Below, in pieces: positions 3,604 to 22,087 of a stretch of DNA of 32,005 bases (position 1 is the first letter of the stretch; every line of letters begins with the position of its first letter). The translations under genes were made by a program, and so were the position numbers. The notes beneath the pieces were generated by a model. It was not told the origin of the DNA. It saw only the letters and a list, made by a program, of their open reading frames with translations, and did not search any database. This DNA is from a virus, in the IMG/VR virus record IMGVR_UViG_3300045886_000087, positions 1-32,005 of that record; one strand, given 5' to 3'.

Positions 3604-4641
3604 ATGCCCGAATTTGCTGCAGCCGTCGCGATCACGAAGCAAATCGTCATGCGGGAGGAGTCGACGTCGGGCACCGACCCGATGGCGGGCACCTACCTGG
3701 CCGCGGACATCATCGAAGCGGACGCCGCCTCGATCCGCGAGACGAACGACCCGAACGAGATCCGGAACCTGATCACGAAGGGCAACCTCGGCAACGCGCC
3801 GGCGCTCAAGGGCCCGCGCGTGACCCGGATCGACTTCCGGATGCCGATCCGGGGCCTGGTCGGCGCGGCCGAGTACGACGATACTCCAGAGGTAGTACCC
3901 ACCGCGGACCGTCCGCTTCAGGGGTGCCGCCTGGGGCGCACCTTCACGAACCCCGGGGTCGCTAACAGCTCGGTCCTCTACAAGCCGACGAGCGCGGGCA
4001 AGACGTACACGATCTATGTGCCCGTGCTCATCACCGGTTCGACGGCACAGATCCGGAAATATACGGGGTGCCAGGGCAACGTGCGCTCGATGGGCGTCGC
4101 CGGGGAGGGGGCCTTTCACGAGTTCAGCTTCATCGGGAGCTTTCTCGAGGAGGTCGACGGGACCTTCGTCGCCGGCACGCTGGTCAACACGCCGGAGTTT
4201 CCGACGGTGGTCGACGCCGACTTCCAGATCGGCAGCACGAACTACGCGCCGAGGATCAAGACGTTTACCTTTGACGCGGGCCAGCGGATCGCCCGACTCC
4301 CCTCGATCAACGCGGCGACCGGCGTCTCGGGCTTCAAGGTGGTCGATCGGAACCCGCGGCTGGTGATCGACCCCGAGATCGACACCGAGGCCAACTCCGG
4401 CTGGTTCGCCGCCTTCCGTGACGGCGTTCCGCTCAAGGACTGCACGTGGAAGGTCGGCAAGGATGGGGCCGCGGGCCACGCCAACCGGCTGCAGTTCCAG
4501 TTCGCCTCCGACGGCACGACCGCGAACCTGCAGGTCGTCGACTACCAGCGCGAGGAGCGGGACGACGTCGTGTGCGCGCGCATCACCCTGACGCCGCTGA
4601 TCGCGGCCGGGAACGATGACTGGGGCTATCTCTATAACTAG
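3604..4641 (+). CDS. Major tail tube protein
   Basis: A 345-residue, beta-rich protein immediately upstream of the chaperone-position genes and tape measure, where the tail tube gene always lies. It starts MPEFAAAVAITKQIVMREES and has many short hydrophobic strands and Gly turns, for example GEGAFHEFSFIGSFLEEVDG and TPLIAAGNDDWGYLYN at the end. Tube subunits of this length carrying extra Ig-like or insertion domains are common in siphoviruses. The start ATG is 2 nt past the previous TAG. The TAG stop at 4639-4641 is followed, in the same frame, by a 21-nt gap with a strong ribosome site and the next start. Confidence 0.7.
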   Translation: MPEFAAAVAITKQIVMREESTSGTDPMAGTYLAADIIEADAASIRETNDPNEIRNLITKGNLGNAPALKGPRVTRIDFRMPIRGLVGAAEYDDTPEVVPTADRPLQGCRLGRTFTNPGVANSSVLYKPTSAGKTYTIYVPVLITGSTAQIRKYTGCQGNVRSMGVAGEGAFHEFSFIGSFLEEVDGTFVAGTLVNTPEFPTVVDADFQIGSTNYAPRIKTFTFDAGQRIARLPSINAATGVSGFKVVDRNPRLVIDPEIDTEANSGWFAAFRDGVPLKDCTWKVGKDGAAGHANRLQFQFASDGTTANLQVVDYQREERDDVVCARITLTPLIAAGNDDWGYLYN

Positions 4642-4662
4642 GCCGCTCGACTAGGAGGCTGT

Positions 4663-5121
4663 ATGCCGCGACGTGCGACGGAATCCGAGATCATCGCCGC
4701 CGGAGAGATGGACCTCGAGGACCCCGGCCTTGTGTCCAAGGACGGCGAGCCGATGTCGATTCGCGTTCGCAAGGTCGACGCCGGCGAGCGCGAATCGCTC
4801 ATGCCACCGGTGCCTGCCCATATCTACGACGAGCTGCCAGAGGATGACGAGAAGCGGCAGAAGGCCCTGATCGAGCGGCGGCAGGCGTGGCTCGCCGGCC
4901 TGTCGAAGGAGGAGATCGAGGCGCGCACGGAGGAGGCGGGCCGCTTTCACTATCGGCTCGTCGCGCGGGCCGCGGTCGATCCCATCCTGACGGAGCACGC
5001 CGCGAGCCGGCTCGGCGACGCCGCCGTGCGCCTCTCCACGAAGATCACCGCATTCTCGCGGAACGAGCTGGCCCGCGTCGGCGTCGAGCCCCCCACGGAT
5101 CAGGCCCCGCCCGGTCCCTAG
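4663..5121 (+). CDS. Tail assembly chaperone (G-like)
   Basis: A 152-residue, highly charged and largely helical protein between tail tube and tape measure genes, the place of lambda gpG. The start has a clear ribosome site (AGGAGG, 5 nt before ATG). The middle is rich in Glu, Lys and Arg (EDDEKRQKALIERRQAWLAG) and the end is Pro-rich. In the lambda paradigm G and GT are made by a -1 frameshift. Here the following gene is in the same frame, parted only by a TAG that touches its ATG, so a classic slippage product is not needed. Function is inferred from position and composition. Confidence 0.55.
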   Translation: MPRRATESEIIAAGEMDLEDPGLVSKDGEPMSIRVRKVDAGERESLMPPVPAHIYDELPEDDEKRQKALIERRQAWLAGLSKEEIEARTEEAGRFHYRLVARAAVDPILTEHAASRLGDAAVRLSTKITAFSRNELARVGVEPPTDQAPPGP

Positions 5122-5742
5122 ATGGCGCCCGACCTGATTCTGATCGCCACGGTCAACGGCGAGCCGCTCGAGTTCATCGCGCGCGACGTGCCGGCCGGGG
5201 TCTTCTTCTTCGGGTTCCAGGACTCGTTTCCCGGCACCGAGTGCTACGCCAAGCTGGGGGCCACGCAGCAGCGCGACATCATCGCGGGCTTTCACGCCTG
5301 GGGGCGTGGCCTCCTCTGTCGCGCGATGGTGGACCCGCGGCTGACCCCTGAGGGCGTGCAGCGCCTGGGAAGTGCCAGCGACGAGCTGGCCCTCGGCTAC
5401 ATGTGGGGGGTCGGTTATCAGCAGCCAACCGCTCAGGAGCGCGAGCGCATGGCCCCGCCGCGCCGGTCGAGCGAGCGCCACGGGGTCCACCGGCGGTGGA
5501 CGGACGATTATGAGGCGCTCATGACCGTGCCGTCGCCGAACATCCGGGGGCTGGTCAAGGAGATCTCCCACCGCGCCCGGACCGCTCCGGCTGCGGTCTG
5601 GAGGTGGCCGATCTCGACGTGGCTCTGGACCTGGCGGGTCATCGTGCAGGATGACCTGAAGCGGCGCGCCGGCAAGGCTAGTCGCCGGTCGGGGCTCCTG
5701 CCGCAGAGCGACATCATGGACCGCGTCGGGCGGGAAGCCTGA
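5122..5742 (+). CDS. T-position protein between chaperone and tape measure
   Basis: A 206-residue protein whose ATG directly follows the upstream TAG, in the same frame and without its own visible ribosome site. It must therefore be made by termination-reinitiation or by amber readthrough as a G-T style fusion. The first ~90 residues are beta-rich (LILIATVNGEPLEFIARDVP). The C-terminal third has aromatic and basic stretches (AVWRWPISTWLWTWRVIVQD), with four Trp in ten residues. No family is recognised. The slot suggests the T half of the tail assembly chaperone, contacting the tape measure protein. Confidence 0.5.
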   Translation: MAPDLILIATVNGEPLEFIARDVPAGVFFFGFQDSFPGTECYAKLGATQQRDIIAGFHAWGRGLLCRAMVDPRLTPEGVQRLGSASDELALGYMWGVGYQQPTAQERERMAPPRRSSERHGVHRRWTDDYEALMTVPSPNIRGLVKEISHRARTAPAAVWRWPISTWLWTWRVIVQDDLKRRAGKASRRSGLLPQSDIMDRVGREA

Positions 5743-5743
5743 G

Positions 5744-8725
5744 ATGGCGCAGGAAGCCCTCGACTTCATCATCTCCGCGCGGGACGAAGCGACCCGTGTG
5801 CTGCAGGGTGTCGGGCAGCAGCTCGAGATGTTCGGCCAGGCCGCGACCCGCGGCACCGAGCAGATCAACCGACAGCTCGCGACGACCACCCGCACCGTCA
5901 CCGCGTTCGACAATGCGATGGCGCAGAGCGCCCGGGGGGTGCGGGCCCTCGCCCTGCCGCTGATCTCAGAGCTGTCGCCCGCGCTCGGGCGGACCAGCGG
6001 CGAGATGGTCCGAGTCCTCACTGGCGCGGCTGCCCTTGGGACGGGGTTCGGGGCGCTCACCTTGGCGGTGGCTGGCACCGCCGGCGTGCTCGCGGGGGAG
6101 TGGATCTCCGCGAGCCGGCGGGCCCAGGAGGCCCAGCTCGACTTCCGGCGCGCGCTGCAGTCGCCCGAGATCGGGGACGTGACGAGCAAACTCGCGACCC
6201 AGTCCAAGGAACTGCGCGACCTGCGCGACCGCCTCCGCGAGGTGAACCAGGAGATCACCGCGATCGACCCGCGGAAGGTCGAGCAGCTGCGCGGGCCCTT
6301 CTCGCCCGGGGCCCGCCGGGCGCAGCTCGAGCGTGACAAGGCGGTGATCGAGGGGCAGATCAGCCAGCTCCGCGAGCGCGAGGCGGCCGACCTCACCGGG
6401 GCCACGGTCGGCCAGGCCTTCCGCGCGGGGGAGCAGATCGACCGCGACCGCGCCCGCCAGGCGCTCGAGATCCTCGATCGGGTCAACCGCGGCGAGTTCC
6501 GCACCCCGCTGATTCAGGACCCGATCGCCCGGGGCGAGGCCGAGCTCCGGGCCAGCCTGGCCCCGCAGATCGAACTCCTGCGGAGCCAGGGCCTGACCGA
6601 TCAGGCGCGGGTGCTCCAGGCCTTCCCGGGCCTGCTGGCGCGGGATGCGCGGATCTCCCGCTTCCAGCAGGGGGCGCCGGTGAACCCCTTCGAGACGGCG
6701 CAGGGCCAGGAGGCCGAGCGACGCGCTCGCGCGCAAGCCCTCGTCGAGGAGGCCGAGGCTTACGAGGCGCGCATCCGCGAGTTCCAGCAGCAGGCGCCCG
6801 TCAACCCCTTCGAGACCGCCGCCGGCCAAGCGGCGGAGCGGAAGGCGATCGACCAGGAGCAGCTCCGGCTGATGCAGGAGCAGGAGCAGGTCGCGGGGCG
6901 GATCTTCGTCGCCAACGTGCAGATGCTCGACGTGCAGCGGCACGCCTTCGAGATCACAGGGCAGATGACGCCGGAGCTCAACGCCCAGCTCATCCTGCGC
7001 GAGCGCGACCTGCTCCTGAGCCAGGAGAAGCTGACCGACCAGGAGAAGGGGCTGATCAACGCGCGGGCCGAGGTGGCGCTGCTCGAGCAGATGGTGCGCC
7101 TCGACCCCTTGGCGGGCTTGAGCGCCGGCTTCGCGGAGTCGGCGGCACGGTCGCGCGAGTGGGGGAGCGAGCTTCGGCAGCTCGCGCGCGAAACCGACCG
7201 GACGATGTCGCAGACCTTCAGCGACGGCCTCTTCAACCTCTTCACCGGCCGCAAGGGGCAGGATCTCGGCAAGCAGTTTGCGGAGAGCCTGCTCCGGTCG
7301 GTGACCGACGTGGTCGGGCGCCAGCTCTCCAGCTCAGTCGGCGGCATCTTCTCGCAGGGCCTCCAGGCGGTCCGAGGCGTTGTCCCGAGCACGGCGGTGG
7401 CTGGCGGCGGGGGTGGCTTCGACATCCTGAGCCTGATCGGCGGGAGTGGCGCCGCGCCGACGACCCTGTCGCCGACGGGCCTCCCGGTGGGGCAGCTCGT
7501 CATGACGCAGGCTGGCCTCGGTCAGGTCACGCCGACCGGGGCGGTGCAGATCCTTGAGAGCGGGACTGGCTTCGACGTTGACCCGAGTACGCTCATCGGC
7601 CTCACGCAGCAAGGCTACAAGCTGGCCACCGGCGGCTCCTCGATCCTCTCCACGCTCGGATCCAACTACGCGCTCGGTGGGGTACAGGGTGCGCTCCTCG
7701 GGCTCCCGGCCGGTGCGACGATCACCACGGCCGCAGGGCAAACCATCGTCCTGGGGTCGGAGCTGGCCTCGACCAGCGGCTACGCCCTGGCCGAGCTCGG
7801 CGCGGTCGGTGTCGACGCCGCCGCCAGCGGAACGACAAGCGGGCTGGTCGGGACTGGCGGGAGCGTGTTCGCGAGCACGGCGGGGGCGGCGACGGCGGGC
7901 GTACTCGCCGCCGTCGCGCTGGGCTTCACGATCTATGGGGGCCTCTCGCAGCAACCCACCGCGACGAACATCGCGATCAATGCGGCCTCCGGTGCGCTCT
8001 CGGGCGCCGTGCTGGGCCTGGCGATCGGCACCCTGATCAACCCAGGCCTCGGGACCGTCATCGGTGGTGCCCTCGGTGCGATCATTGGTGGTGCCGCAGC
8101 GGGCGCGACCACGGGCCTCAAGGCCGGGCCGCGGCCCTTGAACACGGCGGAGCGGTCCGCCGAGATCGGCCGGCTCGGCGCCGAGAACTTGCAGAGCGCC
8201 ATCAGCCGCGCGTCCTCGATCGAGGACATGGTCGCGATCTTCAACACGCGCTGGGCGCCGAACGGTGAGGTGCAGATCCTGACGGTCTACCAGGGCACGC
8301 TCTACTGGGCCGGCGACCAGGATGATCCCGGCGGGCAGCCGGCGACTCCCGAGCTGATGGTGATCCCCGAGTTTCTCGACGCGCTCGACATCCGCGTCGG
8401 CCAGACCGGCGCGCCCGAGACGAACGCCACGCTGGTCACCGCCTTTCGGGCGAAGCGGGACGAGCTGCTCGAGACGCTCTCCGCCATTCCCTTCGGCATC
8501 CTCGAGAGCGACCGCGGGGCGGGGGTCACCCGGCGGACGTACCTCCCCTTCCAGAAGATCTACGGCCTCGAGAAGGGTCAGCAGCAGCTCTTCGGGAGCA
8601 GCGAGTTCTACCGGCGCGATCTCGGTGGTGAAGATGACACGATCGCCTTCCTGCTCGATCGCCTCCGCGAATACTCGGTGCGGAAGGACGTCGATCTCAC
8701 CCGCACCGAGTTCCTCTTCCGATGA
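5744..8725 (+). CDS. Tail tape measure protein
   Basis: At 993 residues this is the longest gene in the window; it starts 1 nt after the previous stop. The N-terminal ~100 residues are typical of tape measure proteins (DFIISARDEATRVLQGVG, then Gln/Thr-rich helix). A hydrophobic segment lies near 95-120, followed by long charged coiled coil (about 125-460) with two copies of a FQQ-PVNPFETA-GQ unit 40 residues apart. A Gly/Ala-rich hydrophobic region (about 700-790) contains membrane-like stretches. A soluble C-terminal cap of about 200 residues ends TRTEFLFR. Tape measure proteins set tail length and help DNA entry. Its TGA overlaps the next ATG by 4 nt (ATGA). Confidence 0.85.
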   Translation: MAQEALDFIISARDEATRVLQGVGQQLEMFGQAATRGTEQINRQLATTTRTVTAFDNAMAQSARGVRALALPLISELSPALGRTSGEMVRVLTGAAALGTGFGALTLAVAGTAGVLAGEWISASRRAQEAQLDFRRALQSPEIGDVTSKLATQSKELRDLRDRLREVNQEITAIDPRKVEQLRGPFSPGARRAQLERDKAVIEGQISQLREREAADLTGATVGQAFRAGEQIDRDRARQALEILDRVNRGEFRTPLIQDPIARGEAELRASLAPQIELLRSQGLTDQARVLQAFPGLLARDARISRFQQGAPVNPFETAQGQEAERRARAQALVEEAEAYEARIREFQQQAPVNPFETAAGQAAERKAIDQEQLRLMQEQEQVAGRIFVANVQMLDVQRHAFEITGQMTPELNAQLILRERDLLLSQEKLTDQEKGLINARAEVALLEQMVRLDPLAGLSAGFAESAARSREWGSELRQLARETDRTMSQTFSDGLFNLFTGRKGQDLGKQFAESLLRSVTDVVGRQLSSSVGGIFSQGLQAVRGVVPSTAVAGGGGGFDILSLIGGSGAAPTTLSPTGLPVGQLVMTQAGLGQVTPTGAVQILESGTGFDVDPSTLIGLTQQGYKLATGGSSILSTLGSNYALGGVQGALLGLPAGATITTAAGQTIVLGSELASTSGYALAELGAVGVDAAASGTTSGLVGTGGSVFASTAGAATAGVLAAVALGFTIYGGLSQQPTATNIAINAASGALSGAVLGLAIGTLINPGLGTVIGGALGAIIGGAAAGATTGLKAGPRPLNTAERSAEIGRLGAENLQSAISRASSIEDMVAIFNTRWAPNGEVQILTVYQGTLYWAGDQDDPGGQPATPELMVIPEFLDALDIRVGQTGAPETNATLVTAFRAKRDELLETLSAIPFGILESDRGAGVTRRTYLPFQKIYGLEKGQQQLFGSSEFYRRDLGGEDDTIAFLLDRLREYSVRKDVDLTRTEFLFR

Positions 8726-12931: not shown

Positions 12932-14145
12932 TGGGCGCCGCCGGTCGGACGACCATTGCCTTCGAGGACCTCTACACCATCGACGAGCACGACGTCCTGG
13001 TCGATCCACAGACCGGGCTCCCTCAGGCCGTCTGGAGCAAGGACAACACGATTCGCAACAAGGTGGACATCTTCTACAACTACAACGATCCGGCGCTCAG
13101 GCCCGAGGACTTCGGCACCCGCCAGGTGTGGACGGCCGATGCCAGCGTGACGCGGCATGGTCCGCAGCCGGCGATCAGGATGGAGTGCCGCGGGATCCGC
13201 ACCGACCTGGGCGGCCAGGCCCTGATGGACGGGCTCGCGCTCAACTTCCTGCAGCGGTGGGGCTATACGCCGCCCATGCTGCGGCTCGCGGTGACGTTCC
13301 GGCGGCATCTCTTCGAGATCCTCGACTCGGTCCGCCTGACCCATCCGCTGATCAAGAATCCGATGACCGGGCGGCTGGGCCTGGATCGTGAGCAATTCGA
13401 GGTGCTCGAGGTGACGCCCGCCTGGCTGACCGAGGGGAAGCTGATTCTCCTCCTGCTCTGGACGGGGGCCGTCGAGACGTCCGCGGCGCCGACCAGCGGC
13501 GGGGTACTCAATCTCGTGCCCGGCCTCGGTGCGACCGACGAGACCGACGTGCCGGTGCCGCTCGCCGGCTCGGCGACGGTCACGACGGCGGCGAATACGC
13601 GCCGCCTCACGCTGGGCCTCAAGCAGCGCGCCTATCGGGCGTGGGAATGTGTGTTCAACGCGCAGACGCTGGGCAACTGGGACCTCGATCCCAAGACCCC
13701 CGACACGTGCCAGGCGACGGGGCTGAGCTATGTGAGCCGCGCCTACACCAGTCAAGTCACCTACAAGATCGAGTACAAGACCTCGGGCGCCCCGGACTCC
13801 CCGGGCAGCGGCAGCGACCCGACGACGGGATGGGTCACCCTGAAAGCGTCGAGCACGCGCGGCACGGTCGCCCTGTTCAACGAGAAGAAGTGCACGGCCT
13901 CGCCCCAGGCACCCTCGCTGCCGACTGAGGATGCGTGGCAGGAGCATTTCGAGGTGCTGGGCGCTTCGCCGGCCACCTACAACGTCAAGGTCTTCTTCGA
14001 GTCGGTCGCGGCGCAGGCCAACCCGTGCAGCGGCCTCGGGGGGGCGTACTGCTCCTCGCCGAGCTGCTCCGGCACCCTCGATTCGTCGCAGCAGACCGAC
14101 GAGGACGCCGACGTGACGATCGACTACGTCACGTCCATCTCGTGA
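12931..14145 (+). CDS. Tail hub protein, C-terminal half
   Basis: The start chosen is ATG 12931, overlapping the upstream TGA; a longer upstream frame exists but reads as shadow. 404 residues. Residues 1-178 look like the second half of siphovirus hub proteins: FEDLYTIDEHDVLVD, NTIRNKVDIFYNYND, VWTADASVTRHGPQPAIRME, a helix GLALNFLQRWGYTPP, then LAVTFRRHLFEILDSVRLTH and FEVLEVTPAWLTEGKLIL. Residues ~180-404 are an added beta-rich, Cys-containing extension (CTASPQAPS; CSGLGGAYCSSPSCSGTL). With the 9811-11562 product this would make a complete hub. Two other genes lie between the halves. Complementation of the halves in the particle is inference. Confidence 0.6.
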   Translation: MGAAGRTTIAFEDLYTIDEHDVLVDPQTGLPQAVWSKDNTIRNKVDIFYNYNDPALRPEDFGTRQVWTADASVTRHGPQPAIRMECRGIRTDLGGQALMDGLALNFLQRWGYTPPMLRLAVTFRRHLFEILDSVRLTHPLIKNPMTGRLGLDREQFEVLEVTPAWLTEGKLILLLLWTGAVETSAAPTSGGVLNLVPGLGATDETDVPVPLAGSATVTTAANTRRLTLGLKQRAYRAWECVFNAQTLGNWDLDPKTPDTCQATGLSYVSRAYTSQVTYKIEYKTSGAPDSPGSGSDPTTGWVTLKASSTRGTVALFNEKKCTASPQAPSLPTEDAWQEHFEVLGASPATYNVKVFFESVAAQANPCSGLGGAYCSSPSCSGTLDSSQQTDEDADVTIDYVTSIS

Positions 14146-14384
14146 TGGCCGCCATTACCGATCTCGCACGCCCCGCCGCGATCGACGGCCCGGACGACCC
14201 GGAGCTCGCGCGGCTCTGGTCGCTGGCGCTGGCCAAGTACGAGGCGCAGCACGGCGCCCCCCCGGGGAGCCGGGCCGACTGGCGCGAGGTGACGGCGGAC
14301 TACGGCCGCCTCGTCCGGAAGCCGCGCGGCCCCCTGACGCGGATCATCCAGGAGCGGTGTGAGGAGGCGCCCGGCGGTGACTGA
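14145..14384 (+). CDS. Small protein of unknown function at the head of the GNAT/desaturase cassette
   Basis: ATG 14145 overlaps the upstream TGA (TGATG), giving 79 residues. It is acidic at the start (DGPDDPELARLWSLALAKYE), then basic (YGRLVRKPRGPLTRIIQERC), and predicted mostly helical. No family recognised. A small adaptor or a regulator are both possible; nothing in the sequence decides. The next start follows 18 nt after its stop. Confidence 0.5.
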   Translation: MAAITDLARPAAIDGPDDPELARLWSLALAKYEAQHGAPPGSRADWREVTADYGRLVRKPRGPLTRIIQERCEEAPGGD

Positions 14385-14402
14385 CACAAGCGCCCGGCGC
14401 CG

Positions 14403-15014
14403 GTGGCGCCGGCCGTCCTGCCCCGGCTCGTGTGGGAGACGGTGACGGTGGACGAGTTCACGGTGCGTGAGGTGCCCGACGGCGAGCGCTGGTCCACGAG
14501 GCCGGGCGATGCCACGGTGGAGACGATCATCGACGAGACGGCGTGGGAGGGGGCCGCGGCCGCCCCCGGGCGCGCGCGCGCCATGCTCGAGGCCTGGCTC
14601 GCCGAGGGGGCCTGGGTGCTGGGACTCTACCGGGCAGACCGGCTCATCGGGGTCTTCGATATCGGCCGATTCGTGCCGGCCGACTACCTCGTGCCGCGCC
14701 CCGACGCCGTCGGCGACGTGACCGCCGACGCGGGCCCCAGGACCGGACCGGCCCCGCTGCGGCATCTCACGCAGTGGTTCGCCATCCGGCCATCCGAGCG
14801 GGGGCAGATGCCCGCCGCCACCTTCAAGGCATTCAGCGATATCTTCATGCGCCGCCTGTGGGATCAGGGGATCCGCGAGCTCCTCACGATCCACGTCCTG
14901 ACCCTGGCTGAGGGCCGGGCCCACGCGGCCCGCGTCGCCCGCTTCGGGTGGCGCACGCTCAGCCGGACGGGGGCGGTCGAGATCAAGGGCAAGCGCCTGA
15001 TGGAGCGGCCATGA
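14403..15014 (+). CDS. GNAT-like protein, degenerate acetyl-CoA motif
   Basis: 203 residues from GTG 14403; no earlier in-frame start exists because a TGA lies just upstream. The order of elements fits a GNAT fold: RARAMLEAWLAEGAWVLGLYRADRLIGVFDI (split helix, then central strands), a FAIRPSERGQ segment before helix 3, and RRLWDQGIRELLTIHVL followed by RVARFGWRTLSR near the end, the position where GNATs have the GF-x-x end strand. The usual Q/R-x-x-G-x-G/A pyrophosphate loop is not clear (RPSERGQMP), so catalysis is uncertain. It shares elements with the next gene. Its TGA overlaps the next ATG (ATGA). Confidence 0.5.
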   Translation: MAPAVLPRLVWETVTVDEFTVREVPDGERWSTRPGDATVETIIDETAWEGAAAAPGRARAMLEAWLAEGAWVLGLYRADRLIGVFDIGRFVPADYLVPRPDAVGDVTADAGPRTGPAPLRHLTQWFAIRPSERGQMPAATFKAFSDIFMRRLWDQGIRELLTIHVLTLAEGRAHAARVARFGWRTLSRTGAVEIKGKRLMERP

Positions 15015-16138
15015 CGGACGCGGTCCTCGCCCGGCTGGCCCAGGCCCGCGCGATCATGCTCGCGTCGAGCCACTTCCCCCCGGCGGCGCACCTGGCCTAC
15101 CTCGAGCAGGCCGGGCCCGCCATCGGCACGGGCTTCTCACCGGTCGTGATCGGGGCGCTGACCCTGCGCGAGGTGGACCCGATGGCGGAGCGCGTGGAGG
15201 TCATCCGCGTCGTCTCCGAAACCCTCCTCACCTTCGGGCAGGTGGGGCGCATGCTCGCGACGCCCAACGCGGTACCGGGGGCGCTGCTGGCCGCCAACCT
15301 CGTCTGGTTCGGCATCGAGCGGGACGGCGTCCTGATCGGGCTGCACGGCGGCTTCTTCTGGTCGCCGACGCTCTGGATCCGCCGGTTCTACGCGACCCTC
15401 GAGGACCTGGCGTGGGAGATCCACGCCGCGATTGAGTCAGCGATCTACGGGCATCTCTGGGACGCCGGGATGCGCGAGAGCATGATGCAGCTGCCCGCCG
15501 GCACGTCCACTCTGGACGCGCGGATCGCCTCCGGCTGGGCCCCGGTGCATGAGGTGGTGTTCCAGCAGAATGCCCGGCCCTTCGTCTGGCTTCGATACGA
15601 GTTCCCCGATCCGCCCGCCCAGCCAGGCCGCCAGCCGCTGACCGCCGGCACGGCGTGGCGCGTGACGGGCGACGGGTTGATGACGCGGGAACTGGAGGCC
15701 GCCGACGCCCCGGCCATCGTCGCGCTCATGAACTCGGCGCAGTCGGGCTGCCGCATCGACCCTGACCGCGCGGGCGCGATGCTCCGGCGCTGGCTCAGCG
15801 AGGGCTGTACCCTCGTCGGCACCTTCGACGAGGCGGGGCTGTATGCCCTCCGCGTGGTGGATCGCAGCGCGCGCGCGCCCGTCGCGCGCCTCCGCGCCGC
15901 GTGTTGCCGGGACCCGCTCGAAGGACCGGACGGCTACTCCGACGCGATGAAGCGCTCGCTGCGCGGCTACGTCGCCTGGCTCCGCCAGGTCGGCGCGGAG
16001 CGCGTCACGATCGTGCTGCAATCGACCACCCTGGCCGACTGGGACGCCGTCCGGCGTCAGCTCGACGAGGGGACGGTCGCGGCCGGGCGCTTCGAGTGCG
16101 ACGTCGCCGCGCTGGCGACCTTCGCGGGGGCGCCATGA
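15011..16138 (+). CDS. Tandem GNAT-like protein of unknown substrate
   Basis: Start ATG 15011 overlaps the upstream stop (ATGA), giving 375 residues. Two GNAT-like halves are visible. The first (about 45-200) has VWFGIERDGVLIGLHGG, then AIYGHLWDAGMRESMMQL and a RIASGWAPVHEVVF end. The second (about 215-370) has MTRELEAADAPAIVALMNSA, AMLRRWLSEGCTLVGTFDEA and a helix-strand end GYVAWLRQVGAERVTIVL. The first half resembles the end of the preceding protein (LWDQGIRE versus LWDAGMRE); the second resembles its start (AMLEAWLAEGAWVLG versus AMLRRWLSEGCTLVG). Neither half shows a clear acetyl-CoA loop. The next gene starts in an ATGA overlap. Confidence 0.5.
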   Translation: MTDAVLARLAQARAIMLASSHFPPAAHLAYLEQAGPAIGTGFSPVVIGALTLREVDPMAERVEVIRVVSETLLTFGQVGRMLATPNAVPGALLAANLVWFGIERDGVLIGLHGGFFWSPTLWIRRFYATLEDLAWEIHAAIESAIYGHLWDAGMRESMMQLPAGTSTLDARIASGWAPVHEVVFQQNARPFVWLRYEFPDPPAQPGRQPLTAGTAWRVTGDGLMTRELEAADAPAIVALMNSAQSGCRIDPDRAGAMLRRWLSEGCTLVGTFDEAGLYALRVVDRSARAPVARLRAACCRDPLEGPDGYSDAMKRSLRGYVAWLRQVGAERVTIVLQSTTLADWDAVRRQLDEGTVAAGRFECDVAALATFAGAP

Positions 16139-16854
16139 GGCGCTGGCTCGTCGGCCCGGTCCCCGGCCTCCTCGTGGTCCACCTCGGGGCGGTGGTGGGC
16201 CTCGCCTGGCTCCTCACCGGGCGGAGCTCCGCGTGGTGGATCCTCGCGAGCTGGGCCGGCTTCGTCCTGATGGGGCTCATCGGGGTGGACGGCGGCTACC
16301 ACCGGGTGGTGGCCCATCGCAGCTTGCGGCCCCGGAACCGGGCCTGCTTGTTCACGCTGCTCCTGCTCGCCGTCCCGGCCGCCCAAGGGTCGGCGCTGGC
16401 CTGGGCGACGTCGCACCGACTGCACCATGCGCACGCCGACACCCCGGAGGACCCGCACCGGCCCGCGGATGGGTGGCTGCACGCCTACGTGGGCTGGATG
16501 TTCGGGCCCTACGTCCGGGTCATGCGCATGGCGATGCTGCGCGACCCGGGGCTTCAATGGCAGCACCGCTACTATGGGGCGCTGCTCCTGCTCGCATGGG
16601 GCGCGGCTGCGCTCGTGGGGGTGGAATGCCTGGTCTTCGGGCTGCTCCTGCCTGCGGCGGCCGGCTACGTCTCGACGGGGATCGTCAACGCTGTCGCCCA
16701 CCGCCCCAGCGGGCAGATCGTTGACCTGTGGTGGTTCTATCCCCTGGTCGGGGCCACCGCGTTGCACGGGCGCCACCACGCCGCCCCGCGCGCCGGTCGC
16801 TATGGGCGGCTCGACCCGGTCGGATTCATCCTGCGCGCGGTGTGCCGCCCATGA
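16135..16854 (+). CDS. Membrane fatty acyl desaturase (acyl-CoA/acyl-lipid delta-9 type)
   Basis: 239 residues from ATG 16135 (ATGA overlap with the previous stop). All di-iron histidine boxes of the membrane desaturase family are present: H56-x4-H61 (HRVVAHR), H94-x2-HH (HRLHHAHAD), N185-x3-H189 (NAVAH) and H211-x2-HH (HGRHH), followed by the conserved RYGRLDPVGFILR ending. Hydrophobic spans lie near 10-28, 34-50, 71-88 and 147-178. Such enzymes use O2 and an electron donor to put a cis double bond into acyl chains in the cytoplasmic membrane. It is shorter than most bacterial members (about 300) but has no missing metal ligand. No ferredoxin or reductase gene is adjacent. Desaturases are known from some cyanophages but are unusual in phages. 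Confidence 0.9.
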   Translation: MRRWLVGPVPGLLVVHLGAVVGLAWLLTGRSSAWWILASWAGFVLMGLIGVDGGYHRVVAHRSLRPRNRACLFTLLLLAVPAAQGSALAWATSHRLHHAHADTPEDPHRPADGWLHAYVGWMFGPYVRVMRMAMLRDPGLQWQHRYYGALLLLAWGAAALVGVECLVFGLLLPAAAGYVSTGIVNAVAHRPSGQIVDLWWFYPLVGATALHGRHHAAPRAGRYGRLDPVGFILRAVCRP

Positions 16855-17381
16855 TCGCCCCGCGTGATGCGGCTTGGGCGGCGAAGGTCTGGCCCCGGTG
16901 CCTCGAGGGCCTCGACCCTGTCGCCACCTACGGCCCCGAGGTCTTCGACACCGACACGCACCCGGGCGATCGCTACTGGGCCATCGTGGACGCGGACGGC
17001 GCCGAGCTGGGGATGGCCTGGGCCAACCGCTACGAGAACGCCCACATGTGGAGCTACGGCCTGGCCTACTTCCCCGAGTACCGGGGGCGCGCCCTGGGCC
17101 AGGGCTACGAGGTATCGGCGGCGATCACGCGCGAGCTGTTCGCGCTGCCCGCGACGTCGGCGCTGGTGACGCTCGTGTACACGAGCAACCCGGCGGCCAT
17201 GCGCTACAACGGCCTGGTGCGCGAGGGCGACACCTGGGTGTGGCATGGCCGCCCGCACCGTCGGGTCGTCGGGCATATCGTCGACGCGGCCGGGCCGGGG
17301 ATCGACCTGTGGATCTTTCAGACGACGCGGCCGGCCTGGGCTGCGACGCAGCGACCGGTGACGCCGTGGGAGACACCGTAG
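16851..17381 (+). CDS. GNAT-family N-acetyltransferase
   Basis: 176 residues, ATG 16851 in an ATGA overlap with the desaturase. It has the canonical acetyl-CoA binding motif: strand AYFPEYRGRALGQG (residues 72-85, R-G-x-x-L-G-x-G type loop) followed by a helix. Later VTLVYTSNPAAMRYNGLVRE (106-125) is the typical N-x-x-A-x-x-x-x-x-x-x-G motif B region. A central strand ELGMAWANRYE precedes motif A. It should transfer an acetyl (or acyl) group from CoA to an amine; the substrate is unknown. It is the last gene of the coupled cassette and ends in TAG, 65 nt before a strong hairpin. Confidence 0.78.
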   Translation: MIAPRDAAWAAKVWPRCLEGLDPVATYGPEVFDTDTHPGDRYWAIVDADGAELGMAWANRYENAHMWSYGLAYFPEYRGRALGQGYEVSAAITRELFALPATSALVTLVYTSNPAAMRYNGLVREGDTWVWHGRPHRRVVGHIVDAAGPGIDLWIFQTTRPAWAATQRPVTPWETP

Positions 17382-17446
17382 CGAGCCGCTAACAGACAAA
17401 CCGAGCCCACCGGGCGGCGTCATGAACCGCCTGGGGCGTGAAGCCG

Positions 17447-17493
17447 AGACAGAGGGGCCCCTCACCGTACGGGGTGGGCGGGCCCCTTTGTCT
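17447..17493 (+). terminator. Strong hairpin, probable transcription terminator
   Basis: A 14-bp stem pairs AGACAGAGGGGCCC (17447-17460) with GGGCCCCTTTGTCT (17480-17493), with one G-U pair and a 19-nt loop that can itself form CACC/GGTG. The 3' arm is T-rich (CCCCTTTGTCTTT), so it can act as an intrinsic terminator rightward. It lies in the only sizeable gap of the late region (17382-17526), which is otherwise free of genes. Confidence 0.6.
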
Positions 17494-17526
17494 TTGGGGA
17501 CGGACTGAAGGGAAGGGGGGCAGGCC

Positions 17527-19560
17527 ATGATCATCGAGATTCCGCCGACGACGAACGAGCGGCCATCTACCCCGATCGCCGCAGTCGTTGATGTCCAGCC
17601 GGGGCGCGTCCACAACCCCGTCGTGCCGCTCCCCGTCCGTGACGCGCCGCCGTTGAACGGCAACCCGGACGGCCGTCTCTGGGGCCGGTGGATCTCGCGC
17701 CAGCCCAACGGCCCCGGCACGCCGCTGTACGACGGCATGCCCGTCCTCGAGCAGATGGACGACGGCTCCTGGCAGGTGCGGCGCAATTACAACAAGAGCG
17801 GCGACACCAGCGAGCTCGCGGCGCAGCGCATCCCCACCAAGCAGGAGTGGGGCGGGGGCCGGTGCGACGCCATGTTCGTCGGCGACGACACGGTGATCGG
17901 CATACCCGACACCGAGGGCAACAACACCTGGATGGGGATTAACCCCGGCGGGGCGATGAAGCACTACGCGACGCACCCGCTGCACTCGGGCGTCATCCCG
18001 ATCTGCGGGCTGTTCGTCCCGAAGGACGCGGTGATCCGCCCGAGCGGGGCGAGCAAGGTCCTGCTCGGCACCTTCGACCGGCCCTTCCTGAATCCGAATG
18101 ACCTGTGCATCGACGAGGATATTCTGCCTGCCCCGCCGGGGACGCCGGGCGCGACCTTCACCCAGACGGTGGCGTTCGTCGCGGACACGGGCACGCCGTC
18201 GAAGTCCACGGGGCGAATCGCCAAGGTGCGCCACGTTGAGCGCGGGCGGGTCGAAGTCACGACCTTCTTCGACCTAACCGGGAAACTTCCGTACTGCATC
18301 GCGCGCTGGCCCACGGGCGAGTCGCTCGTGGGCTGCCGGGCGACGGGCGAGCTGCTCGTCGTCAACAAGCAGGGGACCGCCGCGACGGTGCTGGCCAGCG
18401 GGTTCAACGAGCCCACGCGGATGCGGCGCTGCTCCGACGAGTCGGTCCTGATCGTGGAGTGGAACGGGCGAAAGATCTGGCGCGTCTTCCCCGACGGCAC
18501 GAAGACCGACACGGGGCAGAAGGTCACGGCCAAGAGCGGGCTGATCGCGGATACCTGGTTCGACCTCTACGTCGATCGGTACGGTGCGCAGGGGCCGGTG
18601 GACGACTACCTCGCCATCCAGTACGGGACGAGTCGGAACATCCAGCGACGCGGGCTGACGGACGGGTTCTCCTCGTGGCTCTCGACCGGGAGTTACTCGA
18701 TCCGGCAGGGTCTGCTCAAGTACATCCAGGAGATCGACTTCCACTACGGGTGGACCTTCACGGGCGCCCCACGTCGGTCGCTCTTCTTCTCGAACGGCGA
18801 TGCCGGAACGTCAGGCGTCAACGAGCTCTACTTCGGCACGCCCGCCGAGATCGCCGGCTTCGACAAGTTCAACGCCACGCTCTACAAGCGTGGGGCGACC
18901 GTCTGGCATCACGGCACGACCCCGGAGACGGGCGTCCTCCGGTCCTCCGGCAAGCTGCACATGGGCAACTACGGGCAGGCGTTCGTGGTGGGGTACACCT
19001 TCGAGCAGATCACCCGGAAGACGCTCCACGAGATCGCCGAGTGGTTGCGGGCGGGGATGGGGACGACGGTCCCGCGTCCCGAGATCACCGACGCCGACGT
19101 GGAAGCGTTCGCCTACTTCGCCGCCTGCCAGACCGCCGTGCCGCAGGAGAAGTCGAGCCTAGATCCGGCGGTGATCCTCGAGGCGGGCGACCCGCTGCCC
19201 CCACCGGACACGACGGGACCCGTGATCACGGCGGTGACGGGCTGGCCCGAGGCGCCGATCAATCCAGGCGAGACGGTCAAGCTGACGGTGCTGGCGGAGG
19301 ACCCGAGCGGCGTGCAGGACGTCACTATCTTCATTGACGGCATCGAGCACGAGACGGACATCGCGGCGCCCTGGTCGGTGACCTTCAGCCGGGATCTGCC
19401 GGACGACTACGCCGTGACCATCCGGGCCCGCGACACCAAGGGCAACCCGACCATCACGGCGCCCCGGACCATCGTCGTCGAGCTGCCCCCGCCGCCGCCG
19501 CAACCGGACGTGACCCTCATCCTCCGGGCCGGGTTGACGCACGAGGTGAAGCAGGCATGA
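17527..19560 (+). CDS. Large beta-propeller-like virion/surface protein with C-terminal Ig-like domain
   Basis: 677 residues; ATG 17527 has an AGGGGGG ribosome site. The body (about 60-440) has repeated four-strand blades of the NHL/SMP-30 kind (YCIARWPTGESLVGCRATGE, FNEPTRMRRCSDESVLIVEW, then KIWRVFPDGTKTD). A middle region (450-560) is followed by a clear Ig-like domain (about 575-655): INPGETVKLTVLAEDPSGVQ, then VTIFIDGIEHETDIAAPWSV and YAVTIRARDTKGN. A PPPPPPQP linker leads to LILRAGLTHEV. It has no signal peptide. Position in the late region suggests a fibre or receptor-binding protein; a cargo enzyme is not excluded. Its TGA overlaps the next ATG by 4 nt. Confidence 0.5.
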   Translation: MIIEIPPTTNERPSTPIAAVVDVQPGRVHNPVVPLPVRDAPPLNGNPDGRLWGRWISRQPNGPGTPLYDGMPVLEQMDDGSWQVRRNYNKSGDTSELAAQRIPTKQEWGGGRCDAMFVGDDTVIGIPDTEGNNTWMGINPGGAMKHYATHPLHSGVIPICGLFVPKDAVIRPSGASKVLLGTFDRPFLNPNDLCIDEDILPAPPGTPGATFTQTVAFVADTGTPSKSTGRIAKVRHVERGRVEVTTFFDLTGKLPYCIARWPTGESLVGCRATGELLVVNKQGTAATVLASGFNEPTRMRRCSDESVLIVEWNGRKIWRVFPDGTKTDTGQKVTAKSGLIADTWFDLYVDRYGAQGPVDDYLAIQYGTSRNIQRRGLTDGFSSWLSTGSYSIRQGLLKYIQEIDFHYGWTFTGAPRRSLFFSNGDAGTSGVNELYFGTPAEIAGFDKFNATLYKRGATVWHHGTTPETGVLRSSGKLHMGNYGQAFVVGYTFEQITRKTLHEIAEWLRAGMGTTVPRPEITDADVEAFAYFAACQTAVPQEKSSLDPAVILEAGDPLPPPDTTGPVITAVTGWPEAPINPGETVKLTVLAEDPSGVQDVTIFIDGIEHETDIAAPWSVTFSRDLPDDYAVTIRARDTKGNPTITAPRTIVVELPPPPPQPDVTLILRAGLTHEVKQA

Positions 19561-20876
19561 GCGAGATCCGAATCCGCTGGGTCGCGCTCCTGCTGATGGC
19601 GGTCCTCATTCTGCTCCTGATCGCGCTGTCCATCGTCAACGCCTGGGCGGCCTGGGAAGTGGTCCCGTGCACGACGCCAACCCGGACCGTGCATCAGCCG
19701 TACTTGACGGGCAACAACAGTCTGGCCAAGGGCACGGCAGGGGCGGGCGTCACCGTGGCCCCGCGCCCGGTGACGTTCAATAATTGCGAGTTCGTCTTCC
19801 GCTCCTACTCCGGAGCATGGATCGTGGATGGCCAGTACCTCGCCATCGGCGGCGGCCATGCCGGGCACCCGGGCAACGACGTGGACCGCTTCGACCTGGC
19901 CGCAGGGGCGTGGCAGCCGCTCGCGTACCCGTCCGAAGCGCCCGAGCCCTACACCCTCGTCAACGGCGTCTGGACCGCGAACGGGCTCTGGCGCTGCATG
20001 AAGGGCGGCGGGGCCGGGTGCGGGGGCGTGAGCCCGACGGGCCGGCCGTTCACGGGGCACATGTACCGGCTCTGCGCCCCGGCGCTGTCCACGTCGAGCC
20101 CTTCGGGGCTGCTCGCCTGCGTCCTGGGATCGGGAACGTGGACCTTCGATGCGGGCTCAGGAGAATGGGTGCAGCACGCCGGGCGGGACCGCTACAAGAA
20201 CGAGCCGGCCTGCGGCGCGGCCTGCGGCGTCCTCTACGATCCGCTGACGCACGCGCTGTGGGTCTTCGCCAGTGACACGCAGAACGCCCTCTCCCGCGCG
20301 ATCTACCGCTACGCCTTCCCGGTCATGGACTACGACCGGGTGCGGAGCTGGCCGGTGGTGTCCGGGTGGGGGTGGGGCTCGAAACTCATCTCGGCGTTCC
20401 GTGTGGACCTGACGCGCGAAGCCGTGCTGATCACGAGCCCGACCGGCGGCACGCTCCCTGCCGTCCCGTATCGGATCTGGCGCATGGCGCTCGATCACCC
20501 CGCGGCGCCGATTGAGTGGGACGACTCCATCCTGCCCGGCGATCCCGTCTATGAGGAGCTGAAGGGGAGCGACGGCAAGTGGGCGCGCCGCTGCGACGTG
20601 CGGCAGACGACGGGCGAGCTCTGGTGCTGGCAGGGGCAGACGTTCACCCATCCGGCACTGGGCGCGGTGACGCCGGGCTGGTGGGTGCAGGACCCGCAGA
20701 CACGGGAATGGACGAAGGTCCCCTGTAGCGGGCTCTGCCCGAGCGTGGACTGGTGGACGGTGGCGTGGGACGCGGCGACGGATACCTTCATCGCCACCGA
20801 CGGGCTCACGCTCTACTGCGGGGTGTCGGCGGCCTCCTGCGGCGGACGCGCGCGCCTGGTGAGGTACCGGCCCTAA
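19557..20876 (+). CDS. Kelch-like beta-propeller protein with N-terminal signal/anchor
   Basis: 439 residues. Residues 9-31 (VALLLMAVLILLLIALSIV and on) form a hydrophobic signal or membrane anchor followed by Ala-Trp-Ala, a possible signal peptidase site. The rest has kelch-like blades: YLAIGGGHAGHPGNDVDRFD with AGAWQPLAYP, TWTFDAGSGEWVQH, GVLYDPLTHALWVFAS and WVQDPQTREWTKVPC. It contains more than a dozen Cys, several close together (ACGAACG, GLCPS), which fits disulfides outside the cytoplasm. Ordinary virion proteins lack signal peptides, so this may be exported to the envelope or surface of the infected cell. Start ATG overlaps the upstream stop; its TAA overlaps the next ATG. Confidence 0.5.
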   Translation: MSEIRIRWVALLLMAVLILLLIALSIVNAWAAWEVVPCTTPTRTVHQPYLTGNNSLAKGTAGAGVTVAPRPVTFNNCEFVFRSYSGAWIVDGQYLAIGGGHAGHPGNDVDRFDLAAGAWQPLAYPSEAPEPYTLVNGVWTANGLWRCMKGGGAGCGGVSPTGRPFTGHMYRLCAPALSTSSPSGLLACVLGSGTWTFDAGSGEWVQHAGRDRYKNEPACGAACGVLYDPLTHALWVFASDTQNALSRAIYRYAFPVMDYDRVRSWPVVSGWGWGSKLISAFRVDLTREAVLITSPTGGTLPAVPYRIWRMALDHPAAPIEWDDSILPGDPVYEELKGSDGKWARRCDVRQTTGELWCWQGQTFTHPALGAVTPGWWVQDPQTREWTKVPCSGLCPSVDWWTVAWDAATDTFIATDGLTLYCGVSAASCGGRARLVRYRP

Positions 20877-21604
20877 TGGCGCTTCCGACCGTTCAAGGGG
20901 TCGCCAACGGGCAGGGGAACACTGCCGCCGCCACCGTCTCCTGGCCAGCGAGCCACCAGGCCGATGACATTGGCTTGCTGTTTCTTGAAACGGACGACGG
21001 CGAGGCCGCCGGGGTCGCCTCCCCCTCCGGGTGGGTGGAGGTGACGGACTCGCCGCAGGACAGCGGGGCGAACGGCGGGAACACTGGCACACGCCTCACG
21101 GTCTTCTGGAAGCGGGCCACGTCAGGGGCCGAGGGCGATGTCACGACGACCGACGCGGGGAATCATACCTACGCGCGGATCATCTCGTTCCGGGGGTGCG
21201 AAACCAGTGGCAACCCGTGGGACGTGACGGCAGGAGACAACGCGAACAGCGCGTCCTCCGGCTCGATCCCTGGCGACACCACCACCGTCGCGGACTGCCT
21301 GATCGTCGCGGCCATCTCGCGCGGCACGGACACGGCGAGCGCCGCGTTCTCCAATTGGGCCAACGGGGACCTGGCCAACGTCGCCGAGATCGCCGACGCG
21401 GGGACCGCCCAGGGCAGCGGGGGCGGGGTCGGCGTCGCGACCGGGGAGAAGGCCTCGGCCGGGACGTTCGGCGCCACGACCGTGACCCTCGCGGCGACGT
21501 CCGGGCAGGGCCGAATCATGATTGCGCTGAAGCCGCCGCAGGCCGCAGCGGGCGGCGGTATCGTCTTCGACCCGAACCCATTTCACCACCTGCTCGTGAG
21601 ATAG
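20876..21604 (+). CDS. Free-standing paralogue of the hub insert domain
   Basis: 242 residues from ATG 20876 (TAATG overlap). Residues 30-221 align along their whole length with residues 137-331 of the hub protein at 9811: shared blocks are the WKR turn, G-N/D-H-T-x-A-x-I-x-x-FRGC-x-x-SGNPWDV, GSIPG-x-T-x-TVA-x-CL, and VATGE followed by GATTVTLA and IALKP. The N-terminus is a short strand region; the C-terminus (GGGIVFDPNPFHHLLVR) is unique. It is a beta-rich virion-type domain of unknown function, perhaps a ligand-binding module. It follows the kelch-like gene and precedes the next gene in the same frame, separated by TAG. Confidence 0.6.
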   Translation: MALPTVQGVANGQGNTAAATVSWPASHQADDIGLLFLETDDGEAAGVASPSGWVEVTDSPQDSGANGGNTGTRLTVFWKRATSGAEGDVTTTDAGNHTYARIISFRGCETSGNPWDVTAGDNANSASSGSIPGDTTTVADCLIVAAISRGTDTASAAFSNWANGDLANVAEIADAGTAQGSGGGVGVATGEKASAGTFGATTVTLAATSGQGRIMIALKPPQAAAGGGIVFDPNPFHHLLVR

Positions 21605-21616
21605 GAGATCCCCACC

Positions 21617-22087
21617 ATGGGCCGCATGTATAACTTGCCGCTCGCGCGCACGGCGGTCACCGCCGCCGTGGACCTGGTCGAGATCCTCACCGCGTCCTCG
21701 CATATCTGCGTGATCCACGGCATCGAGCTCACGCAGTCCACCGAGGTTAAGGACGCCGAGGAGGAGATGCTCCAGCTCGCCTGGAAGTCCGGCCAGACGA
21801 CCGGCGGCTCGGGCGGCGGGACTAGCATCACCCCGATCCCGATCCTCATCGGCGACGCAGCGCACGGCATGACCGTCGAGGCGTTCAACACGACCAAGGC
21901 GAGCGCGGGGACCATCGTCACCCACAAGGTCTGGGACTGGAACGTGCGCGTGCCGTTCCTGTACGTCTTCACGCCCGAGACGCGGCTCGTGATCCCGCCG
22001 TCCACCCGCGCGACGCTCGAGCTCGTCAGCGCGCCGGCCGACTCGGTCACCATCGGCGGCCAGATCGTGCTGGAGATCATCGGCTAG
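21617..22087 (+). CDS. Probable small virion protein
   Basis: 156 residues; ATG 21617 follows a TAGGAG ribosome site. Beta-strand pattern with aromatic strands (YNLPLARTAVTAAVDLVEIL, HICVIHGIELTQSTEV, WDWNVRVPFLYVFTPETRLV, VTIGGQIVLEII) and a Gly/Ser-rich loop (TTGGSGGGTS). This is what a jelly-roll-type decoration or tail protein looks like; proteins of this plan are common among phage virion genes. No exact family assigned. Confidence 0.5.
   Translation: MGRMYNLPLARTAVTAAVDLVEILTASSHICVIHGIELTQSTEVKDAEEEMLQLAWKSGQTTGGSGGGTSITPIPILIGDAAHGMTVEAFNTTKASAGTIVTHKVWDWNVRVPFLYVFTPETRLVIPPSTRATLELVSAPADSVTIGGQIVLEIIG

Follow-up and report, generated by a model that had tools for sequence, protein, structure and literature searches.

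A divergent desaturase gene in an overlapping block with GNAT-like genes beside the tail region of a high-GC phage

A high-GC siphophage carries, after a tail gene and before its putative receptor-binding genes, a compact block of five genes, hereafter the cassette, in which a divergent gene, assigned on sequence grounds to the SCD-type membrane desaturase family, stands among genes with differing degrees of likeness to GNAT-fold proteins. We tentatively read the cassette as a lipid- or acyl-modifying auxiliary operon, and regard this reading, together with the mechanism set out below, as a serious possibility that falls short of being probable. The most interesting result of the analysis is the recurrence of GNAT or GNAT-like genes in the neighborhoods of viral desaturases, of which we found no description in the literature searched.

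The DNA analyzed (the window) is the whole of the 32,005-base virus record IMGVR_UViG_3300045886_000087, with a GC content of 64-74%. Its first genes encode a major capsid-protease fusion, a head decoration protein and a neck protein. The capsid protein shows at most 48% identity to the capsids of Rhodobacter phages, such as RcKemmy, and the gene order of RcKemmy suggests that the window comes from a siphophage; the tail-size genes that follow 3' of the head genes are assigned by this synteny, no relatives of the window's own tail genes being detectable. This order agrees with the first-pass annotation, which had placed the cassette within a phage tail region. The gene directly preceding the cassette, which that annotation called the C-terminal half of a tail hub, has no match in Pfam or PHROGs, and its product is possibly part of a tail hub or adhesin. 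Beyond the cassette, positions 17527-20876 hold two large genes, the first encoding a bacterial Ig domain (PF17957) and the second giving a weak Kelch-like match, which are likely to encode receptor-binding or adhesion proteins. Farther downstream, an open reading frame at 21031-21633 has a GC3 of just 0.60, and the true gene probably occupies 20876-21604, beginning at the ATG at 20876 in another frame and overlapping the previous stop. The window thus holds a metabolic gene flanked by phage genes on a verified phage molecule, which is the arrangement by which phage auxiliary metabolic genes are recognized.

Table 1. Features of the cassette and its upstream flank, in window coordinates
Feature	Position	Strand	Remarks
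Preceding tail-region gene, 405 aa	12928..14145	+	Codon statistics; stop overlaps cassette start
Gene 1, orphan, 79 aa	14145..14384	+	Coding by codon statistics
Gene 2, orphan, 203 aa, GTG start	14403..15014	+	Resembles C-terminal half of gene 3
Gene 3, orphan, 375 aa	15011..16138	+	C-terminal half GNAT-like in low-confidence model
Gene 4, SCD-type membrane fatty acyl desaturase (family assignment), 239 aa, shortened	16135..16854	+	PF00487
Histidine box 1, HRVVAH, residues 56-61	16300..16317	+	Both His in 65/65 aligned
Histidine box 2, HRLHH, residues 94-98	16414..16428	+	His in 65/65
Ligand pair N185/H189, NAVAH, residues 185-189	16687..16701	+	N in 61/65, H in 65/65
Histidine box 3, HGRHH, residues 211-215	16765..16779	+	His in 65/65
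Gene 5, GNAT-family protein (weak), 176 aa	16851..17381	+	Sub-threshold PF13302/PF00583
Terminator-like hairpin closing the cassette	17444..17497	.	-46.7 kcal/mol

The five genes, which the first-pass annotation had described as overlapping or nearly touching across 14145-17381, are indeed arranged in this way (Table 1). The start of gene 1 overlaps the preceding stop as TGATG, an 18-nt gap separates genes 1 and 2, and ATGA overlaps link genes 2 and 3 (at 15011), 3 and 4 (16135) and 4 and 5 (16851), so that the overlaps of the cassette measure 1-4 nt each. This 5' junction leaves no room for a promoter after the tail-region gene, and a search of the cassette region gave no sigma-70-like promoter. 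The terminator proposed at the other end is borne out by a hairpin with a z-score of -5.5, to which none of 200 shuffled sequences was equal in stability; its T-tract is short.

Because a GC content of 73% makes long chance reading frames common, the coding status of all five genes was tested. GC3 lies at 0.92-0.93 in all five, matching the neighboring phage genes, and the frames given in Table 1 score +0.23 to +0.46 per codon against the codon usage of the remaining phage, versus about zero or less for the other frames; antisense reading frames across the cassette have a GC3 of 0.72-0.76. These codon statistics rule out spurious high-GC reading frames and agree with the five genes of the first-pass annotation, all of which are coding. 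The GC content of the cassette is 0.733, compared with 0.693 (sd 0.010) elsewhere in the phage, and its AT skew is reversed. The excess is found mostly at codon positions 1 and 2, and since synonymous codon choice is like that of the phage, it reflects mostly amino-acid content; this fit to phage codon usage indicates resident genes rather than junk. A second contig (3300045941_000177) carries the same 10 kb at 99.99% identity, and one from a third sample (3300045925_000109) extends without a break from the tail-region gene to within gene 2. As the same junctions recur in these contigs, the cassette is not an assembly artefact, and the two together rule out a chimera or host contamination. Recent acquisition from a host was likewise rejected, no donor having been found among 592 Pseudomonadota and Myxococcota genomes plus the 80 best genome_contigs loci, in which the best bacterial matches cover only part of the protein, at no more than about 40% identity. 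A defense system was also considered and dropped, PADLOC returning no match.

The protein encoded by gene 4 matches PF00487 (E 2.6e-10; 40.9 bits, above the cut-off of 29.7), and a phmmer search recovers the acyl-CoA desaturase structures 4zyo (E 7e-14) and 4ymk (E 2.4e-11). The first-pass claim of a desaturase with every histidine box holds: the motifs that mark membership (HX4H, HXXHH and HXXHH, with the extra Asn and His ligands) are all present, and the set of ten predicted metal ligands (H56, H61, H94, H97, H98, N185, H189, H211, H214 and H215) is complete. Their roles are those which we take, from family knowledge of SCD1, to apply here. The GEG motif before box 3, a context common in SCD-like desaturases and not strictly defining for them, is replaced by ATA, with T at position 208, where 60 of the 65 aligned sequences have E. 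The protein is shorter than bacterial desaturases. The family has four transmembrane segments, and hydropathy places the hydrophobic regions of gene 4 at about residues 3-38, 31-55, 69-93 and, in one long stretch, 145-188. With all predicted ligands kept, GEG lost and the chain shortened, the product of gene 4 is a divergent but probably metal-binding enzyme, the activity of which the change from GEG to ATA might impair.

Viral relatives of gene 4 share at most about 30% identity with it. An early tree that set it beside a bacterial sequence was superseded once closer viral sequences had been added. In the newer tree gene 4 (P0004) stands beside L269/L272 (SH-aLRT 94, not starred) in a mostly viral group, a placement that is tentative because of its long branch. 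A desaturase from a Bacteriovoracaceae metagenome-assembled genome (L101) falls among the viral desaturases; this may represent a viral contig or a prophage within that assembly.

The other four genes are harder to place. Gene 1 has no match in Pfam, PHROGs, NCBIfam or PADLOC, and genes 2 and 3 likewise match no family in Pfam, NCBIfam, PHROGs or PDB sequences. A single-sequence AlphaFold2 model of gene 3 has an overall pLDDT of 39, with blocks of up to 85 in the C-terminal half, where strands and helices follow one another as in a GNAT (about residues 220-372, in what is a low-confidence model). All 50 PDB matches listed for it are GNAT-fold acyltransferases, the best having E 2.8e-3 and a probability of 0.99, with TM below 0.35; the P-loop motif that binds CoA is absent from its expected place. 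The C-terminal half of gene 3 thus looks GNAT-like in the model, which we treat as a lead and no proof. Gene 2 resembles this half of gene 3 (Smith-Waterman z 4.8; none of 500 shuffles), pointing to a distant paralogue that would be GNAT-like through this link only, and its own structure model was uninformative. Of the first-pass description of genes 2 and 3 as GNAT-like, then, only such indirect indications survive, with family matches lacking for both. For gene 5, the term canonical GNAT proved overstated: PF13302 is matched at E 1e-4 with 23.4 bits against a cut-off of 25.4, and PF00583 (E 0.012) also falls below its cut-off. The sequence RALGQG (residues 80-85) fits the pattern [QR]xxGx[GA], although it is shifted by about two residues from its usual position and the pattern turns up somewhere in 29% of shuffles. 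We therefore class gene 5 as a weak GNAT on its sequence. A Foldseek search against viral structures gave mixed matches, some of them GNATs.

Genes 1-3 might instead code for divergent proteins of phage structure or tail assembly whose GNAT fold has degenerated, leaving genes 4 and 5 as the only inserted metabolic pair. Their orphan status, their continuity with the tail operon and the lack of a CoA-binding motif at the expected place would fit such an origin, but genes 1-3 were not found in the tail regions of related phages and the raised GC content (0.733 versus 0.693) is common to all five genes, and we consider it very unlikely.

Desaturases are common in phages: two family scans gave about 150 viral loci, in which the sequences closest to gene 4 have about 30% identity. 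In a set of 66 made non-redundant at 90% identity, a gene of either of two families, A5 and A6, lies within 6 kb of the desaturase at 37 loci and is its immediate neighbor at 18; the remaining 29 have no such neighbor. The adjacent genes are mostly downstream, with upstream positions in L269, L270 and L272 and the opposite strand in L026 and L058, and A5 occurs on either side of the desaturase and on either strand. A neighbor kept despite such changes of side and strand likely works with the desaturase. As the loci are related by descent, the 37 of 66 do not represent 37 independent events, and we count two or three. A6 is a GNAT family by Pfam (24.5 bits in L034, cut-off 20.7). A5 is only weakly GNAT-like, 2 of its 14 members matching PF00583 at E of about 0.14, and the two families align with each other in the GNAT core (hhalign E 0.0015). 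No homology between A6 and gene 5, A5 and gene 5, A6 and gene 2, or A5 and gene 3 was detected in any of four tests. Pelagibacter phage Mosig is the sole one of 50,697 phage records to have the A6 GNAT, which carries the annotation N-acetyltransferase there, and it is also the only true phage record matching gene 4. A desaturase in a 254-kb record that bears the name 'Acinetobacter phage MD-2021a' was dropped as a phage example, its neighbors being chromosomal genes; this locus (L007, CAKLQH020000002.1 52549-58884) includes chromosomal btuB, ydiU and baeR, and the record is probably host contamination.

That gene 4 alone changes the fluidity of the host membrane, with the GNAT-like genes as independent passengers that acetylate, for example, proteins, drugs or surface sugars, is in our estimate somewhat unlikely. 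It would agree with the published role of other viral desaturases, which are proposed to alter host membrane lipids or fluidity (PMC7300359, PMC7678222), and with the 29 of 66 loci devoid of an A5 or A6 neighbor; it sits poorly with the close joining of genes 2-5 through ATGA overlaps and with the recurrence elsewhere of GNAT or putative GNAT-like neighbors.

The particular combination in the window was sought in other phages, the check proposed in the first-pass annotation, and scans with genes 2, 3, 4 and 5 recovered only near-identical contigs of the same phage. To judge from these scans, the five-gene order appears unique to this phage species. Gene 3 was found in none of 35 capsid-related phages, a negative search that had no positive control; just one of the 35 has a GNAT. 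Relatives of genes 1, 2, 3 and 5 were absent from the loci examined, as were relatives of genes 2, 3 and 5 from the phage records, and no published desaturase-GNAT pair in phages was found in the literature searched. From the earlier interpretation, what stands well supported by sequence is a desaturase-family auxiliary gene in an overlapping block; the five-gene order does not recur, and the fatty acyl substrate is one we infer from the family.

The nearest viral relatives of gene 4 provide a different setting. At L269-L272 the order is PPTase (PF01648), A5 protein and desaturase, followed by ACP (PF00550) on the opposite strand, and the domains suggest ACP-bound acyl chemistry in the L269/L272 lineage. 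Together these four genes (L269, L270, L271 and L272, at about 3970-5930) make up a small, closely packed phage module for ACP-based acyl chemistry. Among the searched genes of the window, neither ACP nor PPTase was found. Other phage desaturase islands hold PPTase, ACP, ketoacyl synthase, ATP-grasp, halogenase, 2OG oxygenase and methyltransferase genes. L031 and L032 (on the same contigs as L276 and L294) combine a PPTase, a RimK-like ATP-grasp, a ketoacyl synthase, a rubrerythrin-like protein and a GNAT with five or six tandem desaturases, which looks like a phage-borne cluster for polyunsaturated-acyl biosynthesis. In L048 (3845-8786) one co-directional run holds genes for a tryptophan halogenase (PF04820), a relative of the gene 4 desaturase, a ketoacyl synthase and one more small membrane protein, which has a His motif. 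At L011 (7672-10668) the viral desaturase is directly followed by a B12-binding-domain protein split by an intein with a LAGLIDADG domain.

Such islands, containing PPTase, ACP, ketoacyl synthase or halogenase genes, raise the alternative that gene 4 is a tailoring desaturase or hydroxylase acting on a small natural-product intermediate rather than on bulk membrane lipids, with the GNATs capping or loading the product. The shortened chain of gene 4 and its loss of GEG could also be accommodated in this way. However, the window has none of those extra biosynthetic genes and the nearest solved structures are acyl-CoA desaturases, making this alternative quite improbable.

Under the operon reading that we prefer, the cassette would be read through from the tail operon and ended by its own terminator, and translational coupling would deliver a membrane di-iron desaturase and GNAT-fold proteins at matched levels. 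The desaturase would take electrons from a host ferredoxin or cytochrome and introduce a double bond into an acyl chain of the host, whether acyl-CoA, acyl-ACP or acyl lipid, and the GNAT-fold proteins would then move an acyl or acetyl group onto the amine of a lipid headgroup, an amino acid or a surface molecule. The outcome would be a changed membrane or surface of the infected cell, late in infection. Late timing, translational coupling, substrate, activity and a pathway shared by the GNAT-like proteins and the desaturase are all points that we infer. Joint action is plausible by analogy, since GNAT or GNAT-like neighbors occur at 37 of 66 viral loci and the nearest relatives are accompanied by ACP and PPTase.

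It is conceivable, though unlikely as a general proposition at present, that phage desaturases are often one half of a recurring module, a membrane desaturase with a GNAT-fold acyltransferase (in some cases with ACP and an activating enzyme), which makes an N-acyl or acyl lipid product, and that the window adds a third such module, put together independently and containing three to four GNAT-like domains. The usual explanation of phage desaturases is that they act singly on membrane fluidity; should a GNAT partner really be involved, many of them may instead yield a specific acylated product.

Among known systems, GNAT enzymes that acylate amino acids (PMC11631085) make a desaturase-GNAT pair chemically sensible. 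The N-acyltransferases of the FeeM and OlsB type (PMC11631085) are GNAT-related, transfer acyl chains to amines and can serve as a model for the pair; the proteins of the window lack sequence matches to these families, and the likeness is a functional analogy only. Mosig (EXVC030M, MT647606) and similar marine contigs likewise have a desaturase and an N-acetyltransferase in one co-directional island beside a tail fiber gene. Mosig differs in being a T4-like myovirus whose island adds 2OG oxygenases, an aminotransferase and a methylase, and its GNAT is neither adjacent to the desaturase nor, by the tests run, homologous to those of the window. L269-L272, with the viral desaturases nearest to gene 4, have the putative GNAT-like A5 protein of 182 aa directly at the desaturase, but they differ in their dedicated ACP and PPTase, their upstream partner and their low GC content. 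According to PMC7300359, Arctic sea-ice viruses encode viral fatty acid desaturases (vFAD), and lipid desaturases of cyanophages are credited there to Roitman et al. 2018. Like gene 4, these are phage-encoded members of the SCD-type family proposed to alter host membrane lipids. They belong to aquatic phages, whereas the siphophage of the window is small and high in GC and its enzyme is very divergent; the window would extend the desaturase-GNAT pattern to such a phage, in the form of an overlapping operon with GNAT-like genes beside tail genes.
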